This document shows positions 6,028-62,300 of a stretch of DNA of 64,000 nt, one piece after another. The position numbers were made by a program, and so were the translations under genes. The stretch's first letter is position 1; each line of letters begins with the position of its first letter. The notes under the pieces were generated by a model. That model ran no database searches, had not been told where the DNA came from, and saw only the letters and a list, made by a program, of their open reading frames with translations. This DNA is from Struthio camelus (taxonomy: Eukaryota; Chordata; Aves; Struthioniformes; Struthionidae), in contig NC_090943.1 of the NCBI RefSeq assembly GCF_040807025.1, forward strand, positions 121,409,900 to 121,473,899. Direction: 5' to 3'.

Positions 6028-39886
<33,859 letters not shown>

Positions 39887-44745: not shown

Positions 44746-45825
44746 CACAGAATCACAGAATGGTTGAGGTTGGAAGGGACCCCTGGAGATCATCTAGTCC
44801 AACCTCCCTGCTCCAGCAGGGTCCTCTAGAGCACATTGCCCAGCATCACATCCAGGCGGGTTTTGAATCTCTCCAGGGAAGGAGACTCCACAGCCTCTCT
44901 GGGCAACCTGTGCCAGTGCTCACTCACCCTCACAGGAAAGAAGTTTTTCCTCAGGTTCAGGCAGAACTTCCTGTGGTTCAGTTTATGCTTGTTGCCTCTC
45001 ATCCTATCGCTGGGCACCATGGAGAAGAGTCTGGGCCCATCTTCTTGATACCCTCCCTTCAGACACTTATACACATTGATCAGATTCTCCCCCTCAGTCT
45101 TCTCTTCTCCGGGCTCAACAGACCCAGCTCCCTCAGCCTTTCTTCAGAGGAGAGATGCTCCAGTCCCCTCATCATCTTTGTAGCCCTCCGCTGGACTCTC
45201 TCCGGGCGTGCCATGTCTCTCTTGTAGTGGGGAGCACAGAACTGGACACAGTACTTCAGGTACCTCCCCAGGGCTGAGCAGAGGAGGAGAATCACCTCCC
45301 TCCACCTGCTGGCAACACTCTGCCTAATGCACCCCAGGATCCCATTGGCCTTCTTGGCCACAAGGGCACGTTGCTGGCTCATGCTTAACTTGTTGTCCAC
45401 CAGCACTCCCAGGTCCTTCTCTGCTGAGCTGCTTTCCAGCAGGTCAAGCCCCAGCCTGTCCTGCTGCATGGGGTTATCCTTCCCTAGGTGCAGGACCCTG
45501 CGCTTGCCTTTGTTGAATTTCACGTGGTTCCTCTCTGTCCAGGTCCCTCTGAATGGCAGCACAGCTCTTGGGTGTATCAGCCACTCCTTCCAGTTTTGGA
45601 TCATCAGCAAACTTGCTGAGGAGGCACTCTGTGCCTTCATCCAAGTCACTGATGAATACATTGAACAATACTGGACCCAGTATTGACCCCTGGCGGACAC
45701 CGCTAGCTACAGGCCTCCAACTAGACTCTGTGCCACTGACCACAACCCTCTGAGCTCTGCCATCCAGCCAGTTCTCGATCCACCTCACTGTCCACTCATC
45801 CAACCCACACTACCTGAGTTTAGCT
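44746..45825 (-). mobile_element. CR1 non-LTR retrotransposon, 5'-truncated, copy 2
   Basis: Antisense insertion about 4.9 kb beyond the TTC39C stop. Its 3' end has two CACAGAAT units in tandem (44746-44761) followed by the same tail as copy 1, with which it is nearly identical over about 800 bases. On the minus strand it encodes the RT palm and thumb: [20 protein letters not shown] is not fully retained at the 5' edge, but [20 protein letters not shown] is. The catalytic box appears as [10 protein letters not shown], and the C-terminal CR1 sequence follows ([20 protein letters not shown]). Frames 45803-45474 and 45700-45080 overlap in different phases, showing a frameshift, so the copy is not functional. 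It is truncated within RT, about 800 bases shorter on the 5' side than copy 1. Confidence 0.93.
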
Positions 45826-48382: not shown

Positions 48383-48416
48383 CTTTGTGACGCCTGGGCA
48401 CTGTGGCGTCACAAAG
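48383..48416. promoter_or_regulatory. CABYR: Palindromic CRE-like element in CABYR promoter
   Basis: CTTTGTGACGCC (48383-48394) and GGCGTCACAAAG (48405-48416) are exact reverse complements separated by 10 bases, so the two TGACG half-sites face away from each other. Half-sites of this kind bind CREB/CREM/ATF factors. The repeat centre is about 50 bases upstream of the TATA box, a normal proximal promoter position. Confidence 0.65.
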
Positions 48417-48449: not shown

Positions 48450-48457
48450 TATAAAAG
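48450..48457 (+). promoter_or_regulatory. CABYR: TATA box TATAAAAG, CABYR
   Basis: A perfect TATA consensus directly downstream of a GC-box cluster. It predicts transcription start at about 48478-48483 on the + strand. Confidence 0.8.
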
Positions 48458-48876: not shown

Positions 48877-49030
48877 ATGAAGATGCTGTCTGCAAGGGCC
48901 AGGTTTGTGGTTCCCTATGGCCTCAAGACGCTGCTGGAGGGTGTGAGCAGAGCTGTTTTCCAGACCAACCCAAACAACATCACTGGCTTTGCAGCGCTCT
49001 ACTTCCAAGAGCTTGTTGACTTCAGAGAAG
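48877..49030 (+). CDS. CABYR: CABYR coding exon 2 (start, RIIa domain)
   Basis: The acceptor is TTACAG at 48843-48848; 28 bases of 5' UTR precede ATG AAG ATG. The exon encodes the RIIa dimerisation/docking fold and ends at AGAGAAG|GTTTGT with one base left over. The RIIa helix pattern fits AKAP binding. Confidence 0.92.
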
Positions 49031-52000
49031 GTTTGTGCCGCCTGCTGAGCTATCGCCAGAGCTGAGCTAGGCCCAAGTGCTGCTGGGCCCCTGGTTAATT
49101 TGTGCTTCTGTTTTCAGGGAATCCCAGTCTGGATTTAACAGAGCTGGTTGGAGAATTTAAATTTATTAGCGGTAAGACCATTCTTTGTTTTCTTAAGACG
49201 TTTTTGAGATAAAGTTCCAACTTGAGTGGATGCAAATAGTGTGTATTTGCCACGGGCTTAACCCCAGCTCTCTCTGGTCCTCTGGAAGAAGCACATAGGC
49301 TGTGCGCTACAAGAAGCAGCAAGCATCTTCAGAAAGCACTTCTTCCATTGAATGTGGGAAGAACCAGTCTCCTGGGATGCTGTACTGTCCCCTTGAACAG
49401 AGGCAAGGGTATATACGTTTGGGCATTTTAGCTTTAACAGCTTAAGTGGGATTCAGCCCACCCTGAGCAGATAGTGACATTACATTTATATAATACCGGT
49501 TTGCAAAGAACAGAGCTCTTGGCTTATAAAAGCACAGACCTCATTCTGCATGCTGCTGATCCCTTTGGGACATGCTTGGTGCTTTCAGCAGCTCCCTGGG
49601 TTTGGCTGTAAAGGCTTGAATTTATGGTGGCATGCAGTAAATGCACAAGAAGGTTGTGTGGGAGCCGTGATGGGTGCCATGTCTGGCCTCACTCAGCACA
49701 CACAGCTTGTTTATATCATCTCCCCCAGGGAGTTCGGCCTCTGTCATTTGGTTTTCATGACTGTCAGCAGCTTCAAACCCACCTGTTATTCAGAAAGGCC
49801 ACTTAAACTGGCTTCCTAGTAACCCTGGAACTAGCCAGCATTGAGAGAGACTTGGTCTATTGACCAAGATTACACACTGCAGTAATTACTGCAATGAAAA
49901 GAAGCCCCAGATACTGCTATAATCTTGTAGGATTTCCAAATGAGGTTCTCCTCTAAAAGAGCCAATGATCACTGCTTTCAGCACTTGAGGGAGGTAGCTT
50001 TCTTCCTCTGCTGGATATTGATATTGCAGCAGGACTTAAAATTTATCACCAGAGGCCAAATTTTAGTGCATTGGCAATTGTTGCATTAAGGATGTCACAT
50101 GGCTGAAATTATTCTCTCTCCAAATGCCTGTTAGTGATGGTGCAGCCTTATGTGATGGTGCACTGACCCCTGCACCAAGCTCCAGTGCAAGCCAGTCTGT
50201 CTCACCTTTTCCCGTACTGGTTGGTCACTTAGTCCTTCTCTTTCCCTGGTCTCCTCCTGCTATGGTGTGATCACATAACCCTAGAGGCATAACAGGGATG
50301 ACCCAAGAGGAATTCCTTAGTTAACTTGAGCAAGGTTTCCTCTGGAGTGTCCCTCTGTGTTGCTAGCATGGTTTTGGGGCTGCCTATGAGCCACTAAGTC
50401 ACTAGTTAAAATTGCTGAAGCTGCAAGGGAGCTCTTCCCCTTCCCCGCTTCTCCCCCTGTTGGCTTGGGATGGCAATCAGAAGAATGTTTTGTGAGAGAG
50501 TCACTCATCCTTTGAGTTCCTGCTGTTACCTTTCTCTGAAATTCCCTGAGCTCATCCAGTCATGACTTCACAAATCAGCTCAGTGCTAAGCTGTGATCAT
50601 TTATCAAAGATTTACCCGCTCTTCAGTTCGGTGCTACATCTACCAGTGTGTTGCTTTGTTACCTATTGGCCAACACTTGGTAATCTTAGGAGAAACCAGA
50701 CGTCTTCCTTGGCTTTTCCAAGGCTGAGGATTTATATATATATCACTAGTCCAGCAGCAAATCTCCTTTGTAAATTCTTCCATCTCTGCAACCTGGGAAA
50801 GCCTTGTAAAAGCACCCTAGAGTATCCAGTGGAGTTGACACTAAAATTGCTCTTGATTTTTTATTTAAATGGAGTAATTTGATTTAAAATATTGCCGTTG
50901 TCTGCTTTTGCTATGCAGAAGACTGGAACGAGAGACTGCCACAGAAATTAGACGTGCAAGACACTTCAGTTCCTGGGGAGCCCAAACAAAAGGAAAAGTG
51001 TACTGACACAGAGGAAGACCAAATCCTTGAAGGCCCTGATACTGAATATACCTCCAAAATGACTCAATACCCATCGACTCACAATGACGTTTTAGAAAAC
51101 AAATCCCCCACCGGACTTGATGAAGCTTCGTCCCCGAAGGGACCGGAACTTGCATACGTCCCCGCTGACCCTGCCCAGCTTGCTACCCAGATGCTAGGTA
51201 ACACTGATTCTGTTCATGCTGTGAAGGATGTGGCAACAAGTGTGCAGACTCTTCCTGAAGTCTCTCTGAGCTCAGAGAACTTATTTGTACCAGTAGAAGG
51301 TGCTGCTGAAGATGTTTCTGCTGTCCCAGCAGCTGAGGGGTCGGCAGAGGCTGTTAGGGCACAACTGTGAGTGCAAAGGCAGCCCTCCGTGGCAGAAGTA
51401 GGTCCCTCAGACAGCCAGGCTGAAGTCTCAACAAATGACGTAAATCAAGTTTCCTCAGCCCCCTTGCAGGAAGAACCATCACCACCACCACCACCACCAG
51501 CACCACCTCCTAAAGCTCCATTGCAGGCCGTGCCTCCCCACAACGAAAGTGAGGTTACCTTAACCACTGAGGTTAACGCTGATGAGCTGGTTATGGATGC
51601 AGAGATTCCACCTTAAATAGAGCAGTTTCCACAGAAAAGAATCATTCTTTCTCTAGACCAAATAGCTTATCTGTTAAAGATTGAGCCGCTATTAAATGCA
51701 GGCCAGTTCTCATGTGCTAAAATCTTAGGTCCATCTGCCGATGACGCAGTGTGTGACCCTGAGAAAATGGAATCCACAGCACAAATGGCATCTGCTGAAC
51801 AAGGTAATGCCATGTCAGGTAAGAAAGTCTGGGTTTTCTGACAACTTCCTGATAGCACCCTACAGTCTGGTCCGTGGTCATTAAATGGAAAAGCACCTAT
51901 GTCAGTGCAGCAAAGGGTGGAGATGACTGGTAAGAAACACCTGTACCCACACCATCTGCCTGGCCCCAATGCGCATGTGTTAGATCTCTCTGCAATCTGT

Positions 52001-53542
52001 TCCAAGGGATGGGGCTGGCTCTGAGCAGGACTCCTGCACTGCTGTGCATTGTGCAGATAAGAGTGATGGGAAGGGGCTCCTTGAACCCAAATGGTCTTGC
52101 TCAAAACAAGCCACATGTTCTGAAGCAGGTATCAGAGATCTAAGATGTAACATGTGTGCCCTGCGGCTAAGGACAGGTGACTGGTGGGAGCCTGAGTTTT
52201 GCATCTCCTCCCCTTGAAAGATTTCGTATTCCAGCACTAACATAGGGGGTTTTGCATTTAAAAGAAATGGTGGTGGTGTCCTGCCTGTGCTGTCTTGTTG
52301 GGTTTGGTGAGTTTCTGCAGCTGGGCTGGGTGGCCAAGCATTGATCATCAGATAGTGGCAGATTTTTTTCTGCAAACCAGAAGAGATCGTGCTCATCTCT
52401 CATGGTGAGATCCGCACTGAACAAGCACTTACCCAGAATTTCTTCACTTTGGTGATGTGTCTGGCTCGTTCCTTGCCCAGCTGGAAAAACCCTCCAGGGT
52501 AGAGGTCCCCCATGAGTCTCCCTAGCGCTACAGAATCCTTTTGCGTCTGTAGAAGCGTGAGGTCCCAGCCAAGCATTTTGTAGAGGAGAGCTGCGTTAGG
52601 CAAACTTGTGAAGTGACAATATTGGCTCTTAAAAAAAAAATTAAATTAAAACCTCAGTTTCAGCAACGCCAGTCAAATGGGACAGTTCTCAAAGGCTTAG
52701 CCAGACATACCTCTGGGCATTAAGGAGTTTCACTTTTCTAGGCTGCAGGTGTTCCTCAGCCATATGCCCAGCTGCGTTTGCTATGCCAGCTCTTCTCTAA
52801 CATGCTTGCTTTAACAAGTGTAGGTTATGTTTTAGATATAAGGATTTACAATATGACTGCAATGCACTGCTCCTGACACCGGCACTCTTACATTTTTATC
52901 TTTGTAGCCATGGCAGCAAGCGAAGCAGGACAGCCACCACCATATTCTAATGTGTGGACCCTCTATTGTCTAACTGACTTGAGCCAAGGTCAAAAATCAC
53001 CACCATCCCTTCCTCCTGCTGGAACTGGCATTCCTTATCCCCAAGCGACCCTCTTTCTATCTGGGGGGAAGGATCAACAACAGTTCCTCCAACCAATACC
53101 ACTACAAGGTCAACCACCACAACTATCCTCTCCAACTTACGTGATGCCAGAAGAAAGCAAGAGGGGAAATGTTCCACCTTTCATTTTAGTGGGCTCTACT
53201 GTTCAGAACACACAGGACTGGAAACTTATTCCTGGCCAGGCTGTCTTTGCACAGCAAGACACTGGTGCTAGGAGATTCACTACAATCCCGGTACCAGTTG
53301 TCAGGCCAGCCGATCAGCAAACAGCTACGCCAATCCCCAATCCTAATGCTGCACAGGAGACTGCTAGGCCACCAACCCCGGTTTTGCTCTCAGTTGCCAT
53401 CCCTCTGGATGATGTAATGGCTGCAAAGAAAGGCTCACTAGCTGGTGATAATCGAACAGCTGTGCACCCCCTTGCAGGAAGTTATGGTTTTACAGGACAG
53501 ATTGCTGTTACACCTGGCACAATCCACAGAGCAGGTTCATGA
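48877..53542 (+). CDS. CABYR: CABYR, calcium-binding tyrosine phosphorylation-regulated protein (short isoform model)
   Basis: The productive model joins 48877-49030, 49118-49171, 50919-51197 and 52908-53542: 1,122 nt, or 373 residues plus stop, against about 379 residues for the short mammalian isoform. The N-terminus holds an RIIa-type dimerisation/docking domain (VPYGLKTLLEGVSRAVFQTN and then FAALYFQELVDF). A middle segment keeps YVPADPAQLATQML, and the second coding region begins SNVWTLYCLTDLSQ with later PPFILVGSTVQN. In mammals CABYR is a sperm fibrous-sheath protein that is tyrosine-phosphorylated in capacitation, binds calcium through its first coding region, and partners AKAP and ropporin proteins by its RIIa domain. 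Two start codons occur (48877 and 48883); the second aligns better with mammals and has A at -3. The long form is disrupted (see the exon 4 entries). Confidence 0.92.
49118..49171 (+). CDS. CABYR: CABYR coding exon 3
   Basis: 54 bases with acceptor CTGTTTTCAG and donor TTAGCG|GTAAGA. It encodes GNPSLDLTELVGEFKFIS, matching the mammalian segment that follows the RIIa domain. Phase 1 on both sides, so it can be skipped in frame. The 1.75 kb intron after it showed nothing recognisable. Confidence 0.88.
50919..51370 (+). CDS. CABYR: CABYR coding exon 4, first coding region up to TGA
   Basis: The acceptor is GCTATGCAG. The exon encodes EDWNERLPQKLDVQD onward, an acidic low-complexity stretch, and the conserved AYVPADPAQLATQML. 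Read without splicing it stops at TGA 51368-51370, giving a 219-residue protein with exons 2-3. An internal donor, CTAG|GTAACA at 51197/51198, joins exon 5 in phase and gives the short isoform. In mammals the frame runs on for roughly 270 more residues. Confidence 0.85.
51197..51203 (+). promoter_or_regulatory. CABYR: Internal 5' splice site producing the short CABYR isoform
   Basis: ATGCTAG|GTAACA leaves one base of a codon. Joined to the acceptor before 52908 it reads AQLATQML-A-MAASEAGQPPPYSN, the same junction design as the mammalian short isoform. The intron would be 51198-52907 and would remove both nonsense codons. Confidence 0.75.
51371..51818 (+). pseudogene. CABYR: CABYR exon 4 distal part, same frame beyond two stop codons
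   Basis: After TGA at 51368-51370 the same frame stays open to TAA at 51614-51616, then stays open again past 51818. The text resembles mammalian CABYR on both sides of each stop: SSAPLQEE and a proline run from (CCA)6 at 51482-51499 in the first part, then IEQFPQKRIILSLDQIAYLL in the second. Two donors, CAAG|GTAATG (after 51803) and TCAG|GTAAGA (after 51818), both leave phase 1 and fit the exon at 52908. So the ancestral exon probably ran 50919-51818 and continued in frame into exon 5. In this genome the segment is a relic, an untranslated part of a long transcript, or reached by readthrough. Confidence 0.7.
51819..52907 (+). other. CABYR: CABYR intron 4
   Basis: Begins GTAAGA and ends TATCTTTGTAG. 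No repeat or RNA gene was recognised in it. When the internal donor at 51198 is used, the removed segment extends back to that point. Confidence 0.7.
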
Positions 53543-53546
53543 GAAG
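52908..53546 (+). CDS. CABYR: CABYR coding exon 5 (second coding region)
   Basis: The acceptor is CTTTGTAG, and the frame is set by the two bases before ATG 52910. It encodes 210 residues: SNVWTLYCLTDLSQ, PQATLFLSGGKDQQ, PTYVMPEE, PPFILVGSTVQN, PVLLSVAIPLDDV and a glycine-containing end (SYGFTGQIAVTPGT). These match the second coding region of mammalian CABYR in order. The stop TGA is at 53540-53542, four bases before a perfect donor GAGAAG|GTAAGT. The mammalian basic C-terminal tail (KRRK-type) is absent. Confidence 0.9.
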
Positions 53547-59300: not shown

Positions 59301-62300
59301 TCCCTTAGCTTTTCTTATTTTTTGTAGTTAGTTTCTCCTCTCAGGGAAAGGAGAAAACTGCTTGGCTATCTAGGCAATAAAGCCATTTCACCAACTTTGA
59401 AAGTAACCACGTGCAACGGGAATACAGTATTACCAGCACACACGCACACACTGACCTGGGAAGTCATGGGCAATAACCTATCAATTTCCCTGGAGGAATC
59501 ATTTCCTCCTCCCCTTTGGCCAGGTATATAAATTTAGGTCTGTCATAAATTAATCACCAGCAATAAGAGTCCTTGCAAGCAGTTATCAGTGGCAACATCT
59601 TTTTCTGGATGGAACTGAGAGGTGCTCAGCAGAGACAACACAGCTCGTGTTTGAACACGGGCGTGCAAACAGCGAGAGGGAAGGAACAGACTTACTGAGC
59701 CTAATCCTTCTCTCTGGAAGTGCTACAGCCTGCACTGACCAAGTCTGCAAATACAACAGCAGCACCACCAAATCTGCTGATGTTTTCAGCTTTTCATGCT
59801 GACACGATAGTGCGTATCACTTAGGTGGACTGACAATTAACCTGAATGTTCAAAGTCTTTTGAATATATAACTACATACACCTACAGGCAGATACACTAA
59901 CCTCGTCTTCCAGTCTTCCTCTGACTTGGAACGATTTTTGCGAGCAGTTCTCTGTTTTTCTTCTAGCCTCTTCTTTTCTTCACTAGCTAGATCTTAAAGG
60001 GATAAAAAAAAAAAAAAAGGCCTTAAGGGTAATATAGGACAGAGATATCTACTTCATCTGACCCAGCAAATAAACAAGGGAAGCAGTGAAAGTTGTTCAA
60101 AGTTGTTCATTTAAAGAGGGTCTCCCACATAACATAAAAGCACTTCTATTTTAGTCTAAAAGCCAATCCAGCTGCAGCACAACAGCCAAGGAAATTCTAA
60201 CTTCTAAATGCGTTTAGCCATGGCCTGAGGACCCTGAAAACATGTTTTCTTCACAGCAAACGTGAGTTAGGGGACATGACACATCTAGGATTTCTTTCAA
60301 CAGGGAAACTGATTAAGACATGACGCTGGATTCAATTCAAGAGTTAGGCCATCAACTTCTTTTTAAGTCTTGGGTAAGGTCTTACTAGTGACTAGTTTCT
60401 CATCTAGAGGGATTTGGAATATTCAATTCCAAATCATAAAGAACTGTCTTTTTGCAACATCTCTACATTTTCGTTTTTTTGTTAAGCCACTAAGATAGCA
60501 TGGGCCATTGTCCGTAACACGCAGAACAGTCGCTTATGTTTGGCAGAAAGGACACTCTCATTCTTCAGATGTTCTGAAGGAAAAGGCAAGTCATACCAAG
60601 AAGCAAGTTAGATTAAGGACAGCATCTTTCATGCTTGAATTCTGAATCGTGAATGGCTTAGGAAGAAGTAGTTGGGAGAATCATTTTTGGAAGACTATCA
60701 GCTGTTCCCACTTATCCTACTAGCTACTGACATGCCACATATGTACCAGTGTATCTGCTAGACAGTATCTATGCTGCTATTACAGTTATGGAATATAGTC
60801 TGCTGCTAAAGGCATAGTTACTGCACTCCAAGTTTAGACACGCAAGTCACTGAGAATGCCATCAACCAAGTACGTCCATCCCACTGGCCACAAAACAATC
60901 CTATATACAGGAGACACTGGTTGGGTGAATTCATCTGCTTTATTTTATTTTTTTCAGTCTTAGGGAAGTGGTCGTCAGCTTTTGTAAAAAAAAAAAAAAA
61001 AAAACAAAAAACCCAAATCCTTCACAAGCACGACTACATGCTATTATGCCTGCACCTGTGTTTTATATCTAGATCTCAGACTATTTATCAGACATAGTCA
61101 GAAATCACAGAAATTGGTGAAATAGAATCAGAGGTTTCCTGACTTACACAGATCACTTAAGTAAACCAGAGAAACTAACAGCCTCCATGCTTTTGGTCTA
61201 CAAACAAGGCCATCCTGTTTTATAAGCAAAATGCCAACAAGAAATAGAGGAGCAAAAAAAAAATGGCCAGGGCAGGGGTGTTCCACACAATTGTTCATAA
61301 AACTTTACTGCTCTCAAGTCAGCTGCTACATATCAAAGCATTCAACAGTAAGTTCATACCAAAAGGCTCTAGAAGGCACTTTTACTCTACGGAATCTACT
61401 GTAACAATGCCTACAGGGTTTCTAAACAGCATACAATTTCTACTCATTTAAAGTCTCACAGTGCTTTCTAATTCGCTATTCTAGGACAACAGAAATATTC
61501 AGCTGCCAGTGAAAAATAAATTTGCATCAGGCATCTTTTGTCACTGCAGTTCCACTTAGTTTTGACAGAACTAGCACATCAAAACACTTTTGCATTGGCT
61601 GGTGGAAACAGAAAAATGAGAAGTTCACAAACACTTTCGATACTCAGAGCTTGCTGTCTCCTTAGATAAGCTTCCAATTATAAGGCTTGACTACGCAGCA
61701 CAGCAAAGGGGCTTAAAAGCAAGTAAAAATCACATCCTCTTGAAGTTTTAAAGATTCTTGCTTACATGGAGAACAGAAGTAGGCAGGTAATATACCTTTC
61801 ACTAGAAGCATACCATAACATGTGAAGGCTGTGTTTAGGTTACTGTCTGGTAGTACGAAGGAACACATCTTTATAGGTTGCTTACTCACTCTAACATTCC
61901 TCCAGCAATTTGAGAGTGGAATTTTTTAATTTCCATTTTTCCAGTTCCTCAGCTTGGAAAAATAAAACACCTTTGCATATAACTGAAATTACCTATTTCA
62001 CCATTCTCCATGGCTCTGATATCTGGTCGTAGCCGGCAGTCAGTTTTGGGAATGATACTCTCCATTTCTTTGTCTAACTCATTCAAAGCCATAGCAAAGC
62101 TAGTAAAATTGTACATCTGAAAGAGACAAAGGTAAAGGGTGACTTTATAAGAAAGTCTTTAGCTGCTAGTTTTAATATACAGCCAAGCAGCATTCTAAAA
62201 ACAAATATCCAGGTGCTTTTATGGTTATTTTTAATCACTCAAGATAGGAATACTAAAGAAGCAGGCAAAACTGCAGCAGGACAGCGTAGGTGATCCTTAG

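Follow-up and report, generated by a model that had tools for sequence, protein, structure and literature searches.

Two in-frame stop codons in exon 4 of ostrich CABYR lie within a putative optional tail of the exon

Is a gene dead when one of its coding exons carries two stop codons in an otherwise preserved reading frame? This question is raised by CABYR of the ostrich, Struthio camelus, whose long isoform was originally predicted to be interrupted within exon 4. The locus lies in a window of 64,000 nucleotides (assembly GCF_040807025.1, contig NC_090943.1, positions 121,409,900 to 121,473,899 of the forward strand), to which all coordinates below refer unless a contig is named. The features of the gene are collected in Table 1.

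Judged by its sequence and its neighbours, the gene is the CABYR orthologue, in agreement with the original prediction. Exon 2 (acceptor at 48847-48, read by eye; donor at 49031) encodes an RIIa domain recognized by Pfam (PF02197, 2.7e-8), and in a comparison of this exon with solved structures the best three of the 16 matches were chains of Sp17, a related RIIa protein. The start of exon 5 (52910-52936) matches the mouse region B primer ATGGCAACAAGCGAAGCAGGACAACCA at 25 of 27 bases, and exon 4 is homologous to region A of the human protein, as described below. TTC39-family exons (PF10300) are located upstream on the + strand (24701-30913) and OSBP-family exons (PF01237) downstream on the − strand (61994-62119 and past the window end), both assigned at the family level. 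At this level, the order is the same as in the human genome, which we take to be TTC39C-CABYR-OSBPL1A. No protein relatives of region B were confirmed among 10 pattern stretches in viral contigs and 52 in genome contigs, and Rfam gave no gathering matches within the window.

Upstream (5′) of exon 2, a perfect 12-nt inverted repeat, CTTTGTGACGCC...GGCGTCACAAAG, occupies positions 48383-48416 (+) and bears two CRE-like half sites, TGACGCC and GGCGTCA. A TATAAA sequence is found at 48450, between the repeat and exon 2. The repeat and this sequence may have a promoter role, and such a combination is reminiscent of the CRE-type promoters of spermatid genes.

Table 1. Features of the CABYR gene in the window (a slash marks the exon-intron boundary)
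Feature	Position	Strand	Basis and remarks
Exon 2, coding part, RIIa dimerisation/docking domain	48877-49030	+	first ATG 48877; PF02197
Exon 3	49118-49171	+	54 nt, phase 1-1; splice sites; joins in frame
Exon 4 portion retained in a putative c-like isoform (last letters ...AYVPADPAQLATQML)	50919-51197	+	alignment, joins, human CABYR-c primer, amplicon arithmetic
Candidate internal donor CTAG/GTAACA	51198-51199	+	same codon and phase as the exon 4-5 junction in human CABYR-c; 1.54 bits, weak
Putative optional a/b-type exon 4 tail	51198-51818	+	621 nt, both stops inside; stops, joins, composition
First in-frame stop, TGA	51368-51370	+	frame reading, ORF list
Second in-frame stop, TAA	51614-51616	+	frame reading, ORF list
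Main exon 4 donor CAG/GTAAGA	51819-51820	+	7.24 bits
Exon 5, coding region B	52908-53546	+	mouse CR-B primer match at start; stop TGA 53540-53542, donor 53547

Exon 4 comprises 900 nt (50919-51818, +), is in phase 1 at both ends, and is bordered by an acceptor AG at 50917-18 and a donor GT at 51819-20. Its coding frame is open from 50888 to the TGA, again from 51371 to 51613, and, past the TAA, from 51617 to 51838, the next stop (51839-51841) being intronic. Both stops are real and in frame, at the positions originally given. The accompanying statement, two stops in about 200 codons with no frameshift, holds for the absence of a frameshift, while its codon count is loose, the distance from the TGA to the exon end being 149 codons. 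The coding frame contains 2 stops in 299 codons, and the other two forward frames contain 16 in 300 and 29 in 299. When the coding frame was dinucleotide-shuffled 5000 times, it acquired 14.9 stops on average and never two or fewer. Downstream of the TGA, one stop is observed in 149 codons, with 6.7 expected from dinucleotide shuffles (P 0.0074).

Faulty assembly, or a rare null allele carried by the sequenced individual, might create such a picture, all the more as a single assembly was searched. However, there are two separate stops, both outside long homopolymers, the blocks flanking them share one frame with no net frame shift, and the assembly consists of 262 contigs of up to 225 Mb, all of which makes this explanation improbable. 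A search of the 1.45-Gb assembly with the exon 4 DNA returned one full-length match, while the other seven of the eight matches were 33-38 nt long and fell in the CAC/CCA repeat of the exon.

The stops should be considered against the layout of the mammalian gene. If human region A is 493 aa long and the a/b and c transcripts have a common 5′ end, the CABYR-c amplicon arithmetic described below places its stop some 110 nt ahead of region B, so a stop well ahead of the last junction would not be unique to this bird. In mouse CABYR, region A codes for 453 aa and region B for 199 aa, with two TGA codons and six further nucleotides between them; an 80-kDa form with region A only is predominant in the sheath, and a 50-kDa form carries both regions (PMC3398308). 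Since stops between A and B are the normal, published arrangement in mouse, the ostrich TGA appears to be a terminator moved further upstream rather than a break in one long protein, and the description of the long isoform as interrupted should be replaced by that of an earlier terminator. At the same time, the predominance of the A-only form in mouse means that loss of the tail is not obviously harmless. The bird gene shares with mammalian CABYR (human a/b and c, mouse I and III) the RIIa N-terminus, the start of region B, termination codons separating A from B, and a GT at the codon of the CABYR-c junction. It differs from the mouse gene in that the A/B stop precedes the end of exon 4 by 450 nt and is followed by a second stop. 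No stop interrupts its exon 4/5 junction; in mouse, by contrast, the two TGA codons and six nucleotides stand immediately ahead of region B (PMC3398308). In kind, the ostrich case is mostly ordinary, namely, a presumably alternatively spliced tail in which the stop comes earlier, a variant of a known gene layout.

What, then, is the sequence past the TGA? The pieces of exon 4 were aligned with a sequence taken to be region A of the human CABYR protein and compared with shuffles. The segment 50921-51367 scored 185, a value reached in none of 1000 shuffles; the piece between the stops scored 64 (P 0.022, best shuffle 79), its background being inflated by its richness in proline, and the piece past the TAA scored 43 (P 0.024, best shuffle 51). 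Homology to this human sequence thus extends over exon 4, becoming weaker past the stops. The pieces are collinear with the human protein, and the alternative frames of the last two score 18 to 30. The codon-position composition points in the same direction: GC1/GC2/GC3 values are 0.71/0.46/0.32, 0.72/0.49/0.41, and 0.54/0.39/0.34 in the three tail pieces, nominally nearer to those of exon 5 (0.62/0.53/0.35) than to those of intron 4 (0.51/0.44/0.48), though the pieces are short. Pfam detected in the exon 4 pieces nothing but weak, sub-cut-off proline-rich matches of the middle piece (best PRIMA1, E 0.006), and neither 50921-51367 nor 52910-53539 had a match among solved structures (E up to 10). 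Taken together, the collinear alignment scores and the depletion of stops after the TGA support the view that this sequence is former coding sequence, and the matching stretches originally recognized past each stop are probably homologous coding sequence, the alignment scores being modest. By a rough neutral model with an assumed indel rate and transition bias, the two stops alone correspond to a divergence of 0.105 (0.013-0.380) substitutions per site, and the stops combined with the lack of any net frame shift to 0.055 (0.013-0.148); either value would place the loss of the tail well after the bird-mammal split.

These estimates bear on the possibility that selection maintains the TGA at 51368 as a functional terminus of region A, producing an A-only protein of 219 residues and leaving the rest of the exon effectively 3′ untranslated, perhaps in many birds. 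It is normal for this gene to have stops between its two coding regions, and the length of region A varies, with 453 aa in mouse (PMC3398308) compared with the longer human region; moreover, the part of the tail ahead of the TGA (51200-51367) is open and coding-like. However, the depletion of stops after the TGA is not expected to persist in an old untranslated region, and both divergence values point to a loss well after birds and mammals separated, so that we regard an established early end as rather unlikely.

The frame stays in register past both stops, as it would if programmed readthrough yielded a full region A. Against this, the stops are of different kinds, with the contexts TGA-GTG and TAA-ATA, neither of which is the strong readthrough context TGA-CTA. 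Each readthrough would be rare, and two in succession would leave very little protein. Genes with readthrough possess a single leaky stop in a readthrough context followed by a coding extension, and what is found here is TGA-G and TAA-A. The tolerated readthrough that had been proposed for this exon is therefore hardly credible.

A clue to how the stops may be avoided comes from the human isoform CABYR-c. Its reverse primer over exons 4-5, the reverse complement of which is TTAGCAATGGCAACAAGTGAAC, spans TTAG/CAATGGCAACAAGTGAAC, i.e., a donor located within exon 4 directly after ...QML, and the c product is 431 nt long (PMC7939523). When the amplicon was recomputed with the junction placed after QML180 of the sequence taken for the human protein, it was again 431 nt, equal to the published size (PMC7939523), indicating that human CABYR-c splices from within exon 4. 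In the ostrich exon, the GT past ...AYVPADPAQLATQML shares codon and phase with the human CABYR-c junction, and the join of 51197 to 52908 reads L-A-M-A-A-S-E, with L-A-M-A-T-S-E in the human primer. By a textbook donor matrix, this weak candidate site is only slightly above the undisputed exon 2 donor (1.49 bits) and far below the main exon 4 donor; the window has 3755 GTs on the + strand, 5.1% of which reach at least 1.5 bits. Of the phase-1 GTs of exon 4 upstream of the TGA, three score above zero (1.54, 0.36, and 0.02), 51198 being the best. Aligned to the bird sequence, the human c primer scores 14 at the c junction and 13 at the full exon 4/5 junction, so base similarity alone cannot single out 51198, and the argument is that of codon position. 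Another donor-like sequence, ACT/GTGAGT over the TGA (51367), was rejected, being in phase 2 and shifting the frame on joining exon 5.

Four exon joins were made. The c-like product is 373 residues long, its version without exon 3 is 355, and the product skipping exon 4 is 280, all three being open to the same final TGA; the join with the full exon 4, tail included, stops after 219 residues and is the only one of the four with an early stop. Both stops are therefore confined to 51198-51818, and since this tail could be removed, the gene need not be broken. It had been proposed that the short isoform bypasses the stops by skipping the whole segment, so that its loss may be tolerated. The loss could indeed be tolerated, but whole-exon skipping need not be the sole route, as the candidate donor at 51198 would bypass the stops as well; being in the human CABYR-c junction codon, it could allow about one third of exon 4 (50919-51197) to remain in a full product. 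A unitary pseudogene of the whole gene would permit no intact product, and here three products stay open, as do the frames encoding the RIIa domain and region B; CABYR in this bird is probably not a dead gene.

A further cryptic intron in exon 4 might also remove both stops, for instance, from the donor at 51198 to a phase-1 acceptor ending at 51665, which keeps the frame and scores 3.18 on a rough scale (5.40 and 4.78 for the exon 4 and exon 5 acceptors). However, no isoform of that shape was found in the published CABYR descriptions consulted, and the donor-like sequence at 51367 would shift the frame onto exon 5; an intron of this kind is very improbable.

The most probable explanation, in our opinion, is a relaxation of selection that lets the a/b-type tail decay, with retention of the c-type isoform and the RIIa domain. 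Exon 4 would then be composite, consisting of a kept 5′ part and an optional 3′ tail that is included when the internal donor is unused. Splicing of the pre-mRNA from 51197, or from upstream of a skipped exon 4, to exon 5 would give an RIIa-containing protein fused to region B. Those mRNAs that keep the tail would stop at 51368 to produce an RIIa protein of at most 219 residues, and they may be degraded, given that the TGA precedes the exon 4/5 junction by 450 nt. With selection on the tail relaxed, two stops could have arisen and perhaps been fixed before the frame was erased.

The decay of a region encoding a sperm-tail protein might be sought in changes of the fibrous sheath. Neognaths are described as lacking sheath ribs and columns, which emu and tinamou retain, the ostrich appearing there in the reference list only (PMC11276731). 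In passerines, a prominent, uniform fibrous sheath has been reported (PMC8812575), so the two sources are not fully in agreement. A neognath-type loss of the sheath was dropped as the cause of tail decay, since the ostrich is a palaeognath, and emu and tinamou keep the ribs and columns. The haemoglobin of the assembly agrees with this placement: its alphaA-globin, joined by hand from three exons, scores 305.6 bits against the ostrich structures PDB 3a59/3fs4, 277.6 against the next single chain, and 271.2 against 3wtg of emu, and a similar gap is seen with exon 2 by itself (144.4 compared with 131.9). In both comparisons, six fused double-alpha chains, which rank higher because two stretches are summed, were set aside; beta exon 2 is not discriminating, with 3a59 and 3eok tied at 160.2. 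The kinase STK33, which phosphorylates the sheath proteins AKAP3 and AKAP4 (PMC11276731), is functional in ostrich, emu, and tinamou and dead in 28 of the 28 neognaths studied (PMC4509753). CABYR resembles this unitary pseudogene as a testis-expressed gene decaying in birds via premature stops, but in neognath STK33 the whole gene has been lost, with deletions (PMC4509753), whereas here the decay concerns the tail of one isoform, and in a palaeognath. The same genome contains an AKAP_110 gene with an open main exon of 781 aa, to whose product the RIIa domain of CABYR may dock. It is possible, although we would put it forward only tentatively, that the ostrich relies on the c-type fusion and has given up full-length A-only CABYR while probably still building a ribbed fibrous sheath. 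If so, this would be a natural isoform-specific knock-out of the form predominant in mouse sperm.

On the reading of a decaying tail, an apparent gene death is recast as a change at the isoform level, and its confirmation would reveal a part of CABYR dispensable for the bird sperm tail. It also serves as a warning that annotation pipelines may mistake such genes for pseudogenes or introduce a spurious gap where the stops lie. In titles and abstract beginnings of the literature on CABYR in chicken and other birds, nothing was found about this exon, and searches with CABYR peptide strings gave no match.

Several observations were made elsewhere in the genome and in the window. There are seven AKAP_110 matches in the ostrich genome; one of them (contig C9, 27974967-27975644) contains five internal TAA codons, and four, on contig C3 (27740378-27749760), make up an opposite-strand pair with frames of 381-382 aa, one stretch containing an internal TGA. 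These matches on C9 and C3 are possibly decayed and duplicated AKAP-type genes. For the FSIP2 family (PF15783), 340 first-look candidates yielded 52 scored matches, 49 on contig C32, two on C34, and one on C11. Those on C32 are situated at 1.23 and 2.18-3.96 Mb, many of them spaced by about 8.9 kb, and their frames, 673-731 aa long, are free of internal stops; one unit that was checked has a frame of 675 aa, with FSIP2 recognized at 3.1e-19 over residues 518-619. It seems that an FSIP2-related gene has been amplified in tandem on a large scale here, about which a literature search on FSIP2 returned nothing. Finally, the window contains two 1.08-kb copies, at 17972-19049 and 44750-45822, which are 91.6% identical and whose frames resemble the reverse transcriptase of LINEs, presumably of the CR1 type.
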